Assembly: GCA_011056835.1 (NCBI GenBank)
Contig: DSDU01000125.1
Location: 1 to 33,128 of the forward strand
DNA: 33,128 bases
Source of the DNA: Deltaproteobacteria bacterium
Lineage (GTDB): Bacteria > Desulfobacterota > Syntrophia > Syntrophales > UBA6807
Reading direction: 5' to 3'
Shown: positions 25,410 through 32,924 of the stretch, piece by piece
Numbering within the stretch: the first letter of the stretch is position 1
How the letters are laid out: each line of letters begins with the position of its first letter
Notes under the pieces: model-generated
Database searches by the model: none
Told to the model about the DNA's origin: nothing
The model's input: the letters and a program-made list of their open reading frames with translations, nothing else
Made by a program: the position numbers and the translations under genes

Positions 25410-25982
25410 ATGGCGCAACATGGTGAGCCTATGATTCACAGACAACTTCTCATAACCGCAATCGTTATTTCACTGGTCGGTCATATTGCGATTATTGCCC
25501 TGTCCGGCATGATTGTTATGAACAGTACCTTACCGGCGGAAAATCCCTTTACGGTGCATCTGGAAAGTCAAACCAGTACCATCGGGATAAAGCCTCCAAT
25601 CAATCACCCTCCGACACAACTCTCCGATCCCCCTTCCATGGAAAAACAAGGCAAGGGTGAAGATATCGTTGAACTGGGAGATAAGCAAACCAAATACTAC
25701 TCGTACCTTAAACATCTGAAACGAAAAATTGAACAACACTGGACGTATCCCGGCGATGCATATATAAAAAAAGAAAAAGGGGCATCCGTTATCCGTTTCT
25801 CTATAACCGAATCGGGCAACCTTGCCGATTTATTCATTGTCGGATCATCAGGATATGAATCGCTTGATGGAGAGGCCCTTCGCGTGATCCGTTCGTCCTG
25901 CCCTTTCAACCCTCTGCCGGCTCAATTCAACCTGTCAAAGCTTCATGTGATTGCCCGGTTTCAATATACGCTGGCCGATTGA
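25410..25982 (+). CDS. TonB-like energy-transducer protein
   Basis: A 190-aa inner-membrane protein reaching into the periplasm. One N-terminal transmembrane helix (about residues 13-37, LLITAIVISLVGHIAIIALSG) is followed by a proline-rich linker (PPINHPPTQLSDPPS) and a TonB C-terminal domain (about 98-188: SYLKHLKRKIEQHWTYPG, VIRFSITESGNLADLFIVG, GESLDGEALRVI-like sequence, NPLPAQF). No ExbB/ExbD or receptor is nearby. ATG 25410 has only GGA before it; ATG 25431 behind GGTGAG would remove seven residues and fits TonB N-termini as well. The 258-base gap before it shows no gene. Confidence 0.8.
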   Translation: MAQHGEPMIHRQLLITAIVISLVGHIAIIALSGMIVMNSTLPAENPFTVHLESQTSTIGIKPPINHPPTQLSDPPSMEKQGKGEDIVELGDKQTKYYSYLKHLKRKIEQHWTYPGDAYIKKEKGASVIRFSITESGNLADLFIVGSSGYESLDGEALRVIRSSCPFNPLPAQFNLSKLHVIARFQYTLAD

Positions 25983-26167
25983 TTATACCGATCAGGCAAC
26001 ATCATCACTTGTAACTGGTTAACGAGGATCGTATCAGCGATACGAACCCTGAACCGATACATCGGAATGTCAGTCTTTCCCTGATTTCCCTCAGGAAAAG
26101 AGAAGGAGTAACGGTCCCATAATCCCTTGCGCTTTTTATGTTTCTTAACTATTGTAGCTTTCATCAT
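25961..26167 (-). CDS. doubtful 68-aa basic ORF between tonB-like and MFS genes
   Basis: A minus-strand frame from ATG 26167 (MMKATIVKKHKKRKGLWDRY) through SFPEGNQGKTDIP and MYRFRVRIADTIL to 25961, overlapping the last 22 bases of the TonB-like gene. The mixed, partly basic composition reads more like protein than most antisense frames. Only a weak AAGTGA precedes it. A small hairpin, TCGTATC-AGC-GATACGA (26029-26045), lies inside. No family recognised. Confidence 0.25.
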   Translation of the reverse strand: MMKATIVKKHKKRKGLWDRYSFSFPEGNQGKTDIPMYRFRVRIADTILVNQLQVMMLPDRYNQSASVY

Positions 26168-26202
26168 TCACTTATACGTGCATAGTCTCAACGGGACTAT
26201 TA

Positions 26203-27426
26203 ATGCCGATGACGAACGAAAAGAAAATTTTAGCCGTTACCTGCGTGGCACACTTTCTGTGTCACTTTTATGAACTCATCTTTCCCGCTCTCGCGATACC
26301 ACTGATGCTCTCGCTGAAGATGGATCTCGCCGATGTTCTGAAATTGAGCTTTCTCATGTATCTTCTCTATGGAGTCGGCGCACTTCCCTGGGGAATGATA
26401 TCCGATCGATTCGGCAACCGACGCAGTCTGATCATCTTTTTCCTGGGATGCGGTATCGGAGCCTTCATGACCGCGCTGTCACACTCGGAGATATCTCTGA
26501 TGATGTCGTTGGCCGTCATCGGCTTCTTTGCAAGCATATACCACTCAGCAGGCATGGGCCTCATATCGCTGGGAGTTAAAAACAGGGGAATGGCGCTGGG
26601 AATCAACGGTGTCGCCGGCAATGCCGGCCTTGTCAGCGCACCCTTTGCGGCAGGACTTCTGAACTGGCTGGTGGGCTGGGAGATGGCCTATCTTCTTATC
26701 GGCACGTTCAGTATTATCTGGGGCATTATCCTGCTTTTTACATCAATCGATGAAACACCGCTCCCGGAATACGCTGAACCCATGAAATCAACATCGAACA
26801 CAAACAATACCTATGTCCGATATTTTGCCATTATGTGCATCATCATGACCATTGCCGGTTTTTCCTATCGGGCCAACAGCGTCGTTCTGCCGGCATACCT
26901 CGAATTCAAGGCGTCATTTCTCTGGAATTTTTTTCAGCGTATCGATCTGTCAAACCTGCCGGGCACGAAGACCCTGGCGGCGACACTGCTGGCATCGTCG
27001 ATTTATTGCATCGGTATCTTTGGACAGCTCGCCGGCGGCAGGGTAGCCGATAGATATGACCTTCGATGGATGTATCTGACGTTTCACACCCTGAGTCTCC
27101 CCTTTGTCATCCTGATGGCAATCGTCGATGAACAGCTCCTGGTCATATCGGCTTCCATGTATGTCTTCTTTTCTCTCGGCATGCAGCCTATCGAAAACAG
27201 CATGGTTGCCAAGTTCACGCCCAGTAAGTGGAGAAGTACCGGCTATGGTATCAAGTTCATTCTTGTATTCGGAATCAGTTCCGTCACCGTCTATCTTGTA
27301 GGCTGGATTAAATCTCTGTGGAGCCTGGAAGCGGTATATTTCTTCGCCGGCGGTGCTGTAATACTTCTTGTCATCATCATCGTGTTCCTGATCTTTATCT
27401 CACGGGGAATCCCTTGCAGAAATTGA
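26203..27426 (+). CDS. MFS transporter
   Basis: A 407-aa major facilitator with about twelve transmembrane helices. The family loop motif between helices 2 and 3 is present as GMISDRFGNRRSL, and a related copy in the second half as GQLAGGRVADRYDLRWM. The opening CVAHFLCHFYELIFPALAIP recalls the Fsr-like branch of efflux carriers. Substrate unknown. A 40-residue cytoplasmic-looking loop (about 190-205, EYAEPMKSTSNTNNT) separates the halves. It appears monocistronic, between the TonB-like gene and a promoter at 27493. Confidence 0.85.
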   Translation: MPMTNEKKILAVTCVAHFLCHFYELIFPALAIPLMLSLKMDLADVLKLSFLMYLLYGVGALPWGMISDRFGNRRSLIIFFLGCGIGAFMTALSHSEISLMMSLAVIGFFASIYHSAGMGLISLGVKNRGMALGINGVAGNAGLVSAPFAAGLLNWLVGWEMAYLLIGTFSIIWGIILLFTSIDETPLPEYAEPMKSTSNTNNTYVRYFAIMCIIMTIAGFSYRANSVVLPAYLEFKASFLWNFFQRIDLSNLPGTKTLAATLLASSIYCIGIFGQLAGGRVADRYDLRWMYLTFHTLSLPFVILMAIVDEQLLVISASMYVFFSLGMQPIENSMVAKFTPSKWRSTGYGIKFILVFGISSVTVYLVGWIKSLWSLEAVYFFAGGAVILLVIIIVFLIFISRGIPCRN

Positions 27427-27492: not shown

Positions 27493-27521
27493 TTGACACA
27501 CTATCATATTTTCCCTATAGT
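27493..27521 (+). promoter_or_regulatory. strong sigma-70-type promoter for the LolA-RND-barrel genes
   Basis: TTGACA (27493-27498), a 17-base spacer and TATAGT (27516-27521) make an almost ideal promoter. The predicted start is near 27528, giving an 80-base leader before the ATG at 27609. The rest of the gap 27427-27608 shows no gene. Confidence 0.75.
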
Positions 27522-27608: not shown

Positions 27609-28424
27609 ATGAAAAAATCATTCTTGATCGTGGGGCTGATCGCAATCTGGCTTTTTAACCCGGTAGTAACACACGCTGTAGAACCGACCGGACGTGAAGT
27701 CATGGAAAAGCAGAAAGAATTTCACAAAGTGCAGACCGAAATCGGCGATGAGGTAATGCTTCTTATCGACAAGGAAGGTGGCAGAGAGAAGCGGCAGGTG
27801 AAAAGATATGCAAAAGAAGTCGGCAATGACATCCATCACTATCTTGTCGTCTTCCTTTCACCAGCAGATATCAGAGGTACGGCGCTGCTTACCTGGGAAC
27901 AGAAAGAACGGGAAAACGACCAGTGGCTCTATCTGCCCGCACAGAAAAAAATGCAGCGTATTGCCAAGGGTAGCAAGAAGAATTACTTCATGGGAACGGA
28001 CTTCACTTACGAAGATATGGAGCCGGAAGATCTCGACAGCTTCACGTACACTATTCTCCGAACAGAGAAGCTTGAACAGGACGATGCCGTCTCCGAATGT
28101 TACGTCATTGAATCGGTTCCCGCCAACGATGAAAAAAGGAAGGAAAGCGGTTACTCCAAACGAATCATGTGGATTGAAAATAAATATCTGTATACCTTGA
28201 AGGTTGAATTCTATGACCGTCGCGGCAGGCTGCAAAAAGTTCAGACCAATCATGCAATGGAAAATGTTTCTGGAACGATATGGCGCGCCAAGAAAACCCT
28301 CATGTCTCACCTGGAAAGAGAACACAAAACGCTGACCAGCATTACGGCCCGACAGATCAATACCGATGTGGACAATTCCGTTTTTACGGAACGATATATT
28401 CTTACCGGCAAGCACACGCAATAG
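27609..28424 (+). CDS. periplasmic outer-membrane lipoprotein-sorting (LolA-like) protein
   Basis: A 271-aa exported protein. Signal peptide 1-23 (MKKSFLIVGLIAIWLFNP, cleavage likely after THA). The mature part has the beta-rich pattern of the LolA/LppX-like fold: DEVMLLIDKEGGREKRQVKR, VVFLSPADIRGTALLTWE, DQWLYLPAQKKMQRIA and GTDFTYEDMEPEDLDSF. This W-x-Y-L-P-x-x-K/R-R-I block marks the 'outer membrane lipoprotein-sorting protein' family, often paired with RND/MMPL permeases and unlike canonical LolA. TAAGGAG lies 6 bases before the ATG. It probably carries a lipid-like cargo between the RND permease and the outer membrane. Confidence 0.82.
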   Translation: MKKSFLIVGLIAIWLFNPVVTHAVEPTGREVMEKQKEFHKVQTEIGDEVMLLIDKEGGREKRQVKRYAKEVGNDIHHYLVVFLSPADIRGTALLTWEQKERENDQWLYLPAQKKMQRIAKGSKKNYFMGTDFTYEDMEPEDLDSFTYTILRTEKLEQDDAVSECYVIESVPANDEKRKESGYSKRIMWIENKYLYTLKVEFYDRRGRLQKVQTNHAMENVSGTIWRAKKTLMSHLEREHKTLTSITARQINTDVDNSVFTERYILTGKHTQ

Positions 28425-28523: not shown

Positions 28524-31262
28524 ATGCGCAAAATTCTGCTGTGGAGCCAGTCTCACCCCTGGATCGTAATAACCATCGTTGCATTTGCAACCATACTGAG
28601 CCTGTACAGTGCCCGGAACCTTCGCGTCGACGCATCGACGGAAGGCATGATGATTCAGGGAGACCCTGCTCAGGACTACTACCGTGAAACGCTCAAGAAA
28701 TTCGGTACCGACAATATTACCGTTATTTTCATAGAGGACAAAGACCTCTTTTCCCCTGAAAAGCTGAAGTTTATTGATGAGCTTGCTTTCAGGTTCGAAG
28801 AACTGCACGGCGTCAGTAAAGTTGAAAGCCTCTATTCCGTTACCAATTTCAAGGGGGCGGAGGGCGGTCTTGAGACCAACCCCTTAATGGATTGGCCGCC
28901 GGAAACACCGGAGGAAGTAGAGCAAATAAAAGAGGACGCCCTGCGTAGCCCGATCCTGCGGGACAGCTTGATTTCTAAGAACGCGACGGCCACGGCGATA
29001 AACCTCTTCATCGAGGGCGATGCCGGTGATCCCGAATTCAACGTTAAGTTTTCCAGAAAAGTCGATGAGATCATCAAACCGTTCGAAGAACGTTTTGACT
29101 CAATCTTTCAAATCGGCCTTTCATATACCCGTCGATTGATCACCGACAACATCATGGGCGACACCATCAAGCTCGTCCCCCTGGCGGCGTTCGTTCTCCT
29201 GCTCACATTGGTCATTTCCATGCGTTCCGCCAGCGGCGCACTGTTGCCGATGCTCACGGCGGGAACCAGCATTATCTGGACAGCCGGTTTCATGTCATAC
29301 AGTAATATCCCTCTCAATGTCCTCACAGTCATTGTGCCGGCACTGATCATTGTCATCGGCTCAACGGAAGACATTCATATTCTTTCCGAATATCTTGAGG
29401 GCATCGAAGAAACAGGGGGAAACAAGAACGAGGCTATAAAAATTATGTCAGGCAAGGTCGGAACTGCGGTCCTCCTGACATCGATGACGACCTTTATCGG
29501 CTTCCTCTCCATCACTCTGAATCAGATAACCCTGTTGAAGCAGTTCGGCATCGCCGCCGCTTTCGGCCTTCTTGTCAATCCACTGGCAACATGTATGCTG
29601 GCACCCGTCTATCTTCACTTCTTCGGCTCCACAAAAGTCAAAACGGCGAAAATACATGAATCCGGCGTGATGCATCGGTTTTTTGATACAGCGGCTACCA
29701 TCATCCTCAGAATTATCCGTAACAAACGGATGGTTCTCACGTGTTTCCTCGGAGGTGCCGCCCTCATCGGATTGTTCACCTTCAGTGTCAAGGTCGACAA
29801 CGACCTTCTCGGGTATTTCAAGGAAAATTCTCCGATGAGAAATCGAAGTCAGATTCTTCATGACAATCTTTCAGGAGCACAGACTTTCTTTATCAGGATC
29901 AGCAGTGGATTTCCTGGTACGTTCAAACAGCCGGAGAATCTGAAACAAATCGAAGCTATTCAACGTTACATCGCCGACAACGGCATGTTTGATAAAACGC
30001 AGTCTCTTGTCGACAATATTTCCCTGATACACCGGGAAATGAACGGCGGAAAGAATGAATATTATAAAACACCGGACACGGCGGACCTTATCGCACAATA
30101 CCTGCTCTTTCTCCACCGTGATGAAATATCCCGGTACGTCACGTCAGACTACGGTGAAGCGAATATCCTTGTACGACACAATATCAGTTCGTCATATGAA
30201 CTGAAGGAAGCTCTCAGTGAGTTGAAACGACATATAAATGCGACCCTCAACCCTCATTTCATCTGGGGGTTCACCGGTGAAAATATCCTCATCAACGCGG
30301 CCGCCGACAGCATGGCCGAGGGGCAGGCCAAGTCCCTATCGCTCGTCTTAGTCCTCATTTTCGTCATCATGTCCATACTTTTTGTCAATGTTAAAGCGGG
30401 AGCACTTTCGCTTATACCAAACCTTTTTCCGATCGTCCTGAATTTCGGCATTATGGGCATCTTCGGCATCCCTTTGAATACAGGCACCGCCATGGTCGCC
30501 GCGATCGCCATCGGTATCGCCGTGGACGACACAATCCATCTGATGAGCCGATATAATACGGAAATGCGACTTCTCCAAAGTCAGGACAAAGCGGTTGACG
30601 TGTGCATTCATGCCGAAGTCAGGCCGGTGATTTCCACATCGGTCGCCCTTGCCCTGGGATTTGCCGTCCTGGGATTTTCCAACTTTGTACCGGTTATCAG
30701 TTTCGGCCTGCTGTCATCAATCGTTATGATTTTCGCCATTATTGGAGATCTGTTCATAACCCCCATTCTCCTTTCATCGACACAACTCATGACACTCTGG
30801 GATGTTCTGGGGCTTCAACTGCAGCAGGCCGTCATTAAAAACGCTGAGCTGTTCAGGGATCTCAGACCGTGGCAAATGAAACGAATAGTTCTGCTCGGAC
30901 GGGTTTTCTCCAAGCAAGCAGGTGAACTGGCTGTCGTTCAGGGAGAGGAAGGAGCCAGCATGTATCTCCTACTCGAAGGAAGGGGGGAGGTTGTGACAAA
31001 GGACAAGAAAACGGGAAGAGATGTCGTTCTAACCGAACTGAATCCCGGAGATGTCTTCGGCGAAATTGCCCTGGTAGAACCGGGACCACGATCCGCCGAT
31101 GTGCGGGCAATCGAACCACTCCGATATCTTGAAATCGACTGGAACGGATTAAGAAGAATACAGCGGATATACCCGCGCATTGCCAGCCGCCTGTTCCTGA
31201 ATTTATCAAGAATTCTAGGAATCCGCCTGGCAAAAACAGATAAGCTTTTATTTGAATCATAA
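28524..31262 (+). CDS. RND/MMPL-family permease with C-terminal cyclic-nucleotide-binding domain
   Basis: A 912-aa inner-membrane transporter. It has two RND halves: TM near residues 15-31 and a periplasmic domain to about 210, a sterol-sensing-like TM bundle (213-380) with STEDIHILSEYLEGIEE, TM at about 395-415, a second periplasmic domain to about 610, and a second bundle (615-770) with IAVDDTIHLMSRYNTE. These DxxH motifs mark MMPL/HpnN-like lipid exporters. Residues about 785-905 form a CRP-type cNMP domain: VVQGEEGASMYLLLEGRGEV and the phosphate cassette FGEIALVEPGPRSADVRA with its arginine. It follows the LolA-like gene by 99 bases and precedes the beta-barrel gene. cAMP or c-di-nucleotide control of export is inference. 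Confidence 0.88.
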   Translation: MRKILLWSQSHPWIVITIVAFATILSLYSARNLRVDASTEGMMIQGDPAQDYYRETLKKFGTDNITVIFIEDKDLFSPEKLKFIDELAFRFEELHGVSKVESLYSVTNFKGAEGGLETNPLMDWPPETPEEVEQIKEDALRSPILRDSLISKNATATAINLFIEGDAGDPEFNVKFSRKVDEIIKPFEERFDSIFQIGLSYTRRLITDNIMGDTIKLVPLAAFVLLLTLVISMRSASGALLPMLTAGTSIIWTAGFMSYSNIPLNVLTVIVPALIIVIGSTEDIHILSEYLEGIEETGGNKNEAIKIMSGKVGTAVLLTSMTTFIGFLSITLNQITLLKQFGIAAAFGLLVNPLATCMLAPVYLHFFGSTKVKTAKIHESGVMHRFFDTAATIILRIIRNKRMVLTCFLGGAALIGLFTFSVKVDNDLLGYFKENSPMRNRSQILHDNLSGAQTFFIRISSGFPGTFKQPENLKQIEAIQRYIADNGMFDKTQSLVDNISLIHREMNGGKNEYYKTPDTADLIAQYLLFLHRDEISRYVTSDYGEANILVRHNISSSYELKEALSELKRHINATLNPHFIWGFTGENILINAAADSMAEGQAKSLSLVLVLIFVIMSILFVNVKAGALSLIPNLFPIVLNFGIMGIFGIPLNTGTAMVAAIAIGIAVDDTIHLMSRYNTEMRLLQSQDKAVDVCIHAEVRPVISTSVALALGFAVLGFSNFVPVISFGLLSSIVMIFAIIGDLFITPILLSSTQLMTLWDVLGLQLQQAVIKNAELFRDLRPWQMKRIVLLGRVFSKQAGELAVVQGEEGASMYLLLEGRGEVVTKDKKTGRDVVLTELNPGDVFGEIALVEPGPRSADVRAIEPLRYLEIDWNGLRRIQRIYPRIASRLFLNLSRILGIRLAKTDKLLFES

Positions 31263-31463
31263 CGTTGAGCTGCCCAAGGTTATTGAGCGCCGTATCTTCT
31301 GTTTTGAGACAAATCAGTAGTGCAGGTCGGAATTTTGGTCAGACAATCCCGGGGATATTTTTCCGGCGTGTTACCGTTTATCTTTTAGTAGTTTTGTAAT
31401 AATGCACCGGAATTTATGAGCCGTTGTGCAAGACCGCTTTACCAAGTGAAAGGATTGATGCAT

Positions 31464-32924
31464 ATGAAGTGGACACAGTACATCATCACCGTGGTTGCCG
31501 TTCTTTGTCTGTCATTTGGGGGAACTTCGTTTGTCGTCGCAGACGATATGGATCTTCTCAATGATCTGGATCAGGAAATAGCCACTGAAAAGCGTGGGGG
31601 CACGGGGAGTGATCTGGATCTTCTCGATGAGCTGGACACGGCACGCACCGAAAAAAAAGAAGATGCATACAAGTATGTTACCATGATCGGAACAAACCTT
31701 GAGGGAAGTATCAGGCTTCGCGGCCACGTTTTTTTTCGCGATCCCGTTGATCGCGAAAAAGTGGATAAGCGGAATCCCATCGGCGAGGCTCTTCTCCGGT
31801 TCAACACATGGACGGGAAATGACAAGTTGAGACTGAACCTTGCAGGATGGATCGAGACGGGCACACAGAAAGACACCTATGACGGCATCTTCCGATGGCC
31901 CCAGGACAAGGATCGCCAAAGACATTATCTTGAATTGAATGAAGTGTATCTTTCCCTCTTCCAGGATTCGTATGATGTAACAGTCGGGAAAAAAATCTTT
32001 CAAAATGGTATTTCGACGCTCTTTTCACCGGCCGACCGATATCGTCTCACCGATTCCAACGACCCCCTGGATCCGAAAGACCTCGGCATATGGCAGACAC
32101 GGGTGGATTACTTTTGGAACAAATACACGTTTACGGCAGCCATTTTCCCAATATATTCTCCGGCGAAACAGCCGAGCCACCGTTCCCGCTGGTCCGACAC
32201 GACGGGAGACTATGACATTTATGAACGAGACACAACAAACAAAGAGGTTGACGAATACTTCCCCTCCATGTCGATCGATAATGTAAGTTACTTTGCCCGC
32301 ATCAAGACGACACTTGCCGGATGGGACCTTTTCATATCGGGATACCATGGCTTAAATCCCTATTATGTCTTGCGGGAAGAGCAGCGTGGGAGCACGACCT
32401 ACCTGATCAAGGAAAATATAAAAGTAGGAAATTACGCAGCAGGATTTTCCACGGCTTATAAGAAATGGGAATTCCACGGCGAAACCCTTTTCAATTTCAG
32501 CTATGACGGAAAGGACGATCATTACTTCACATTCGTCGGAGGGTTCACCTATACTATGGACACATGGGCACGAAGAATATTCATGGAAAAAATCGATATA
32601 ACGATCGAATACGCCAATGAGGTCATCACCAAGGAACAGTCCGCCGATGAATACGTTGAGAGTTCCCGCAAGAGCAGGCTTGGAAGAAATGATATCTTCA
32701 CGCGAATTAACTTTAAATACGACGAGGATTTAAGTTTTCTGTACGTTTCGGATTTCGAGTTTGATCCGTCGGGACGATACAACAAAATTCAGTCGGAATA
32801 TAAAATCAGACCGGGGCTCTTGTGGACAATGGCTTTCGAATTCTTCAACGGAAAGGACGAAAGCTACTACGGTCGTTGGGCACGAAACGATCGATTCATT
32901 ACATCACTCAAATACAGCTTTTAA
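31464..32924 (+). CDS. outer-membrane beta-barrel protein (DUF1302-like)
   Basis: About 486 aa from ATG 31464, chosen because AAAGGA lies 9 bases before it and the signal peptide begins there (MKWTQYIITVVAVLCLSFGG, cleavage near VVA/DD); ATG 31458 is nearly as good. An acidic stretch follows with two imperfect copies of DMDLLNDLDQEIATEK / DLDLLDELDTARTEKK. The remainder alternates polar and aromatic residues in beta-strand fashion (LRLNLAGWIETG, YDVTVGKKIFQNG, YTFTAAIFPIY, YAAGFSTAYKKWEF) and ends in ITSLKYSF. The terminal phenylalanine is the BAM recognition signal. FSPADRYRLTDSNDPLDPKD recalls DUF1302-type barrels encoded with LolA-like and RND genes. It is probably the outer-membrane end of that export route. 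Confidence 0.78.
   Translation: MKWTQYIITVVAVLCLSFGGTSFVVADDMDLLNDLDQEIATEKRGGTGSDLDLLDELDTARTEKKEDAYKYVTMIGTNLEGSIRLRGHVFFRDPVDREKVDKRNPIGEALLRFNTWTGNDKLRLNLAGWIETGTQKDTYDGIFRWPQDKDRQRHYLELNEVYLSLFQDSYDVTVGKKIFQNGISTLFSPADRYRLTDSNDPLDPKDLGIWQTRVDYFWNKYTFTAAIFPIYSPAKQPSHRSRWSDTTGDYDIYERDTTNKEVDEYFPSMSIDNVSYFARIKTTLAGWDLFISGYHGLNPYYVLREEQRGSTTYLIKENIKVGNYAAGFSTAYKKWEFHGETLFNFSYDGKDDHYFTFVGGFTYTMDTWARRIFMEKIDITIEYANEVITKEQSADEYVESSRKSRLGRNDIFTRINFKYDEDLSFLYVSDFEFDPSGRYNKIQSEYKIRPGLLWTMAFEFFNGKDESYYGRWARNDRFITSLKYSF

Follow-up and report, generated by a model that had tools for sequence, protein, structure and literature searches.

RND pumps are usually controlled through gene expression or through small accessory proteins. 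The locus described here raises the question of whether one such pump might carry a cyclic-nucleotide switch of its own, encoded in the same reading frame as the permease. The window, meaning the whole stretch of 33,128 nucleotides analysed (contig DSDU01000125.1 from a Deltaproteobacteria bacterium), contains an MMPL/RND permease fused to a cyclic-nucleotide-binding (CNB) domain. It lies in a trio of genes that all run in the same direction, in the order LolA-like protein, MMPL-CNB, outer-membrane protein. Features are listed by window coordinates.

27493..27521, + strand: sigma-70-type promoter-like TTGACA-N17-TATAGT (11/12 consensus), 87 bases before the LolA-like ORF
27609..28424, + strand: LolA-like periplasmic protein, 271 aa, with a signal-peptide-like N-terminus (Pfam)
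28524..31262, + strand: MMPL/RND permease fused to a CNB domain, 912 aa (ORF, Pfam, alignment, AF2 model)
28524..30779, + strand: permease part, residues 1-752, two RND halves (Pfam MMPL twice; AF2 model and Foldseek)
29367..29372, + strand: TM4 Glu282-Asp283 (E and D each in 30/42 fused proteins)
30525..30530, + strand: TM10 Asp668-Asp669, likely proton-relay pair (42/42 fused proteins)
30795..30893, + strand: linker helices, residues 758-790, from TM12 to the beta-roll (AF2 model)
30900..31139, + strand: CNB beta-roll, residues 793-872 (PF00027; model matches cAMP-bound CRP and GlxR)
31056..31097, + strand: phosphate-binding cassette FGEIALVEPGPRSA, residues 845-858, with Glu847 and Arg856 (conservation; alignment with PKA RI)
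31140..31235, + strand: B and C helices, residues 873-904, including Arg901 (AF2 model; conservation of residue 901)
31416..32924, + strand: outer-membrane beta-barrel-like protein with C-terminal Phe; the true start is likely 31464 (MKWTQ... signal peptide)

The 912-residue frame opens with ATG and contains no internal stops. Pfam recognizes MMPL (PF03176) in two stretches, one per half (E 4.2e-30, 105.3 bits against a cut-off of 20.5), and cNMP_binding (PF00027) at residues 798-879 (E 1.4e-16, 60.7 bits against a cut-off of 27.5), so the two-half RND permease with C-terminal CNB domain claimed in the preliminary description is borne out. The tail after the last membrane helix, put there at about 120 residues, is rather about 160 in the AF2 model, made up of linker helices, beta-roll, and B and C helices. 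Scores from two NCBIfam models, HAE3 (TIGR00921, 200.4 bits, below the 351.9 cut-off) and HpnN (TIGR03480, 84 bits, below the 751.85 cut-off), mark the protein as related to both families and by these models a member of neither.

An alignment of eleven sequences gave a full-length AF2 model (mean pLDDT 74.6, pTM 0.66) in which the permease, of RND type, extends to residue 752; after it come two short linker helices, the beta-roll, and a pair of helices at the C-terminus. The model resembles mycobacterial MmpL4, MmpL5 and MmpL3 and NPC1-type proteins, with Foldseek E-values down to 1e-24. The mycobacterial proteins, which handle lipid-type cargo, are alike in fold but differ in having about 15% sequence identity, no CNB domain, and another kind of envelope. 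Modelled alone (pLDDT 77.4), the tail matches cAMP-bound Mycobacterium tuberculosis CRP and GlxR (best E 2.8e-11, TM about 0.74). Confidence is low at the cassette loop (fragment residues 97-105), and pocket geometry was therefore judged by conservation and not from the model. None of the best 50 structure matches is described as combining permease and CNB domain in one solved structure.

The fusion is genuine, neither a chance match nor an assembly join. It occurs in a single frame in 41 other proteins of the collected set, and a search of 100 relatives plus a genome collection returned full-length orthologues at 86% down to 46% identity. Scans of 395 genomes from the phylum Desulfobacterota and of 155 from the class place it, among the matches listed, in at least 24 and at least 16 of them respectively, one of the latter broken. 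Because many independent genomes carry the same frame, a chimera or frameshift join is ruled out. Two copies are broken, the one in G073 near residue 669 and the one in G154 between residues 367 and 412; both breaks fall within the permease, not at its junction with the CNB domain. The preliminary description had raised the case of a C-terminal part translated as a separate gene in relatives; this was looked for, and no such CNB gene was found beside MMPL genes. Short standalone CNB proteins of about 170-190 aa do occur in the same order, 34-37% identical to the fused domain, and their genes, where viewed, adjoin unrelated long ORFs and not MMPL genes. Three successive MMPL genes without CNB lie on one strand at G065:C83:7032-15015 (L016 and beyond), also in the same order. 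Outside Desulfobacterota, occurrence of the fusion is known from one plasmid record, megaplasmid pCSC3H3 of Thalassospira marina (Alphaproteobacteria); a tblastn search against plasmids gave no second plasmid-borne fused case among the matches listed.

A maximum-likelihood tree was built from the permease part of 70 proteins, 43 of them fused, including the frame-broken copy in G073. All 43 fused proteins fall in one clade with no intruders. Support at its root is moderate (SH-aLRT 82.9, UFBoot 77), and a 38-member core reaches 100/100. A single clade implies a single origin among the sampled proteins, the sampling having been by similarity to the fused family. No sampled intact member of the clade has lost the CNB domain. 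Compared with the nearest orthologue (L033), the permease has a dN/dS of 0.057 and the linker plus CNB one of 0.060; by this measure purifying selection acts equally on the CNB domain and the permease.

The partner genes are likewise conserved in part of the family. The 271-aa protein matches LolA_like (PF17131, E 2.7e-54, 184 bits) and DUF1329 (PF07044, 56.1 bits), and its gene lies immediately upstream of MMPL-CNB in relatives too. The outer-membrane protein of the window has no Pfam matches; a homologue at L087:11511-12926 (E 9e-35) scores 26.5 bits for DUF1302, a small margin over the cut-off of 23.2, so that the window protein may be a distant relative of that family. A sequence scan found no terminator-like site on the + strand between the trio genes. 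A promoter scan returned 14 sites against 9.4 expected, and the one at 27493..27521 is a consensus match only. The trio is kept in those loci of the window clade that have enough flank, in L038 and L040 (46-51% identical), and in L086. It is rearranged in L087, which has two LolA-like genes, while L037 and L084 have the LolA-like gene with no outer-membrane protein detected. The same trio appears on pCSC3H3, where the LolA-like protein, permease (gene CSC3H3_RS22480), and outer-membrane protein are 40%, 37%, and 25% identical to those of the window. Upstream of the trio, at 25410-27426, the window encodes a TonB C-terminal-type protein and an MFS transporter; these are not core, since they are kept in L031 and L033 but absent in L034 and L039.

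Two clades lack the trio, the one comprising L088-L091 and the one that bears GGDEF domains. The former includes tandem MMPL-CNB gene pairs at L088:7001-13415 and L089:2822-9172, in which the first periplasmic loop of the second copy is extended by an insert of about 90-100 residues. L090 has a related single long MMPL-CNB copy followed by a UPF0182 gene. In the latter clade, seven proteins (L059, L060, L061, L062, L065, L068, L073; neighbourhoods L075, L076, L077, L078, L102) end in an additional GGDEF domain that follows the CNB domain and has a degenerate active-site motif. The gene adjoins [NiFe] hydrogenase subunit genes in four of seven loci, and in L102 it stands beside an ORF resembling a hydrogenase maturation protease.

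Conservation in the pocket was counted over 42 aligned fused proteins. The motif FGEIALVEPGPRSADV spans residues 845-860 of the 912-aa protein. The arginine that the preliminary description assigned to the cyclic phosphate, Arg856, is correctly identified and present in 42/42; Gly846 is invariant, Glu847 occurs in 39/42, and Ser or Thr directly follows Arg856 in 40/42. The cassette aligns residue by residue with PKA RI cassettes, with Glu847 and Arg856 both present; in the window clade its sequence is closest to that of PKA RI site B, and the fold of the domain is closest to cAMP-bound CRP. Arg or Lys occupies position 901, in the C-helix, in just those 39 proteins that have Glu847. The remaining three (L037, L038, L040) keep the CNB fold and Arg-Ser-Ala but have lost Glu847 and have Gln at 901. 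As these three form one lineage, the joint loss counts as one event. It would fit a common role of Glu847 and Arg901 in holding the ligand, and in this branch the ligand has possibly changed or been lost. The same three proteins show that a CNB domain can persist without the classic pocket.

As to which nucleotide might be bound, the preliminary description listed c-di-GMP among the candidates, an unlikely one for a cassette of the cyclic-mononucleotide type. The genome of the window has six class III cyclase matches, and the cyclase domains read mostly show a Lys/Thr pattern. That pattern is usual for adenylyl, not guanylyl, cyclases, which makes cAMP the likelier ligand. E. coli CRP uses a C-helix Thr-Ser pair for adenine; on reading the sequence, such a pair is not obvious in the 912-aa protein, which counts against cAMP. 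A cyclic nucleotide sensed by the domain would probably be cAMP. Presence of cyclases was considered as a predictor of the fusion and rejected: each of the 29 genomes tested that carry the fusion encodes two or more class III cyclase domains, and at least one occurs in 23 of 25 genomes without it, so cyclases are too common in non-bearers to be informative. At L083:5252-9943 (the same place as L058), MMPL-CNB is followed directly on the same strand by a class III cyclase-TPR gene. Among the loci viewed, a cyclase gene adjoins the fusion in this one genome, a single case that by rough estimate could be chance and was set aside as proof of the ligand.

On the permease side, Thr670 follows Asp668-Asp669 in 42/42 fused proteins, making a DDT triplet in TM10 invariant. 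We take the aspartate pair, from established RND knowledge, to be the likely proton-relay site, and its invariance is as would be expected of a working proton-driven pump.

Several known systems contain parts of this arrangement. AmeABCD of Castellaniella defragrans, an HAE3 RND cassette of monoterpene metabolism (PMC6394551), pairs an MMPL/HAE3-type permease with a periplasmic protein of the LolA superfamily (DUF1329), encodes a DUF1302 outer-membrane protein as well, and is linked to hydrophobic compounds. Its type of DUF1329/LolA-superfamily partner is present beside MMPL-CNB (PF17131, PF07044). However, AmeD has 787 aa and no CNB domain reported, and the cassette has AmeC (COG4447) as its fourth protein (PMC6394551). 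No counterpart of AmeC was seen with the trio, which in the viewed loci, judged by their neighbourhoods, is accompanied by no conserved fourth gene. TOL_3187/TOL_3188 of Thalassolituus oleivorans combine MMPL, LolA-like/DUF1329, and porin-like proteins and are expressed on C28 alkane, but there the LolA-like domain lies within the permease chain of TOL_3187 and no CNB domain is reported (PMC6304351). A similar set, the MMPL/DUF1329/porin cluster of ORM2a, is expressed in a benzene-degrading culture, again with no CNB domain reported (PMC13101534).

CNB-gated carriers are already known. A direct precedent for such gating is the sperm Na+/H+ exchanger SLC9C1, also a secondary transporter with a fused cytoplasmic CNB domain; cAMP modulates its transport, and the CNB mutation R1053Q abolishes the effect, although it has an unrelated transport fold, is an animal protein, and has an extra voltage sensor (PMC6052114). 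MFS-CNB fusions, mentioned in a review, are bacterial transporters with a plug-in CNB domain, of MFS rather than RND fold (PMC10710835). The preliminary description knew of no characterized RND-CNB example, and none was found either in the open-access literature searched. As far as we found, the parts are known and the combination of RND and CNB is undescribed.

Conservation of the fusion across many bacteria, usually with two partners, suggests that a second messenger, for example cAMP, may switch the pump. The reading we favour, with reasonable though limited confidence, is of a proton-driven RND transporter of hydrophobic or lipid-like cargo gated by a cyclic mononucleotide, probably cAMP. 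Cyclic-nucleotide binding and gating of transport are what we infer, as are the choice of nucleotide, the sign of regulation, the cargo, and the direction of transport. The MMPL-type pump would work with the LolA-like periplasmic carrier and outer-membrane barrel protein encoded alongside it, and the cytoplasmic CNB domain after TM12 would set its rate or opening. The cassette would be occupied by a cyclic mononucleotide, most probably cAMP made by the class III cyclases of the host, with Glu847 directed to the ribose, Arg856 to the phosphate, and Arg901 of the C-helix helping the pocket to close. On binding, the C-helix and linker helices would shift, and the shift could pass directly to TM12 and the C-terminal half-bundle, which holds the TM10 proton-relay residues. 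The LolA-like and outer-membrane partners would suit an envelope lipid as cargo, and a hydrocarbon or other hydrophobe equally well.

The CNB fold might instead be a structural or oligomerization module, pairing through the C-helix, docking a cytoplasmic partner, or placing an additional output domain, and sensing no cyclic nucleotide. The retention of the fold in the lineage that lost Glu847 and Arg901 agrees with such a role, as does the scaffold-like appending of a degenerate GGDEF domain in one subclade. Several CNB proteins are unresponsive to cyclic nucleotides, with non-responding domains known in channels and kinases (PMC6052114). This capacity of the fold to lose its response is the chief doubt about the favoured reading, and the Glu-less branch may be an instance of it. 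An idle pocket, however, would not predict Arg856 in 42/42 proteins, Glu847 in 39/42, or the paired loss of residues, and we regard a purely structural role as unlikely. Slightly less likely still is a pocket that senses something else, be it a nucleoside, a different phosphorylated metabolite, or, in the Glu-less subclade, a ligand of its own. CNB domains of trypanosome PKA bind nucleosides instead of cAMP (PMC10959531), and the Glu-less subclade retains Arg-Ser-Ala, but the window clade has a standard cyclic-mononucleotide cassette, like PKA RI site B, on a fold like cAMP-bound CRP. That a CNB gene came by accident to be read in frame with an MMPL gene ahead of it, and has been carried along without function, is very improbable, given a CNB dN/dS as low as that of the permease, one deep clade with no domain loss among its sampled intact members, and the same fusion with the same partners in Alphaproteobacteria.

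Beyond the single protein, the cyclic-nucleotide-gated pump may represent an old, occasionally mobile family in which a proton-driven pump for lipids or hydrocarbons is switched directly by cAMP, and in which the degenerate GGDEF domain of one branch, encoded beside [NiFe] hydrogenase genes, could integrate a second nucleotide signal; we consider this wider picture possible, just short of an even chance. Thalassospira marina CSC3H3, whose genome is fully sequenced, has one of the family, so the idea is testable in a named strain. If true, an RND pump that carries a cyclic-nucleotide switch within itself would connect second messengers directly and quickly to the transport of hydrophobic compounds.
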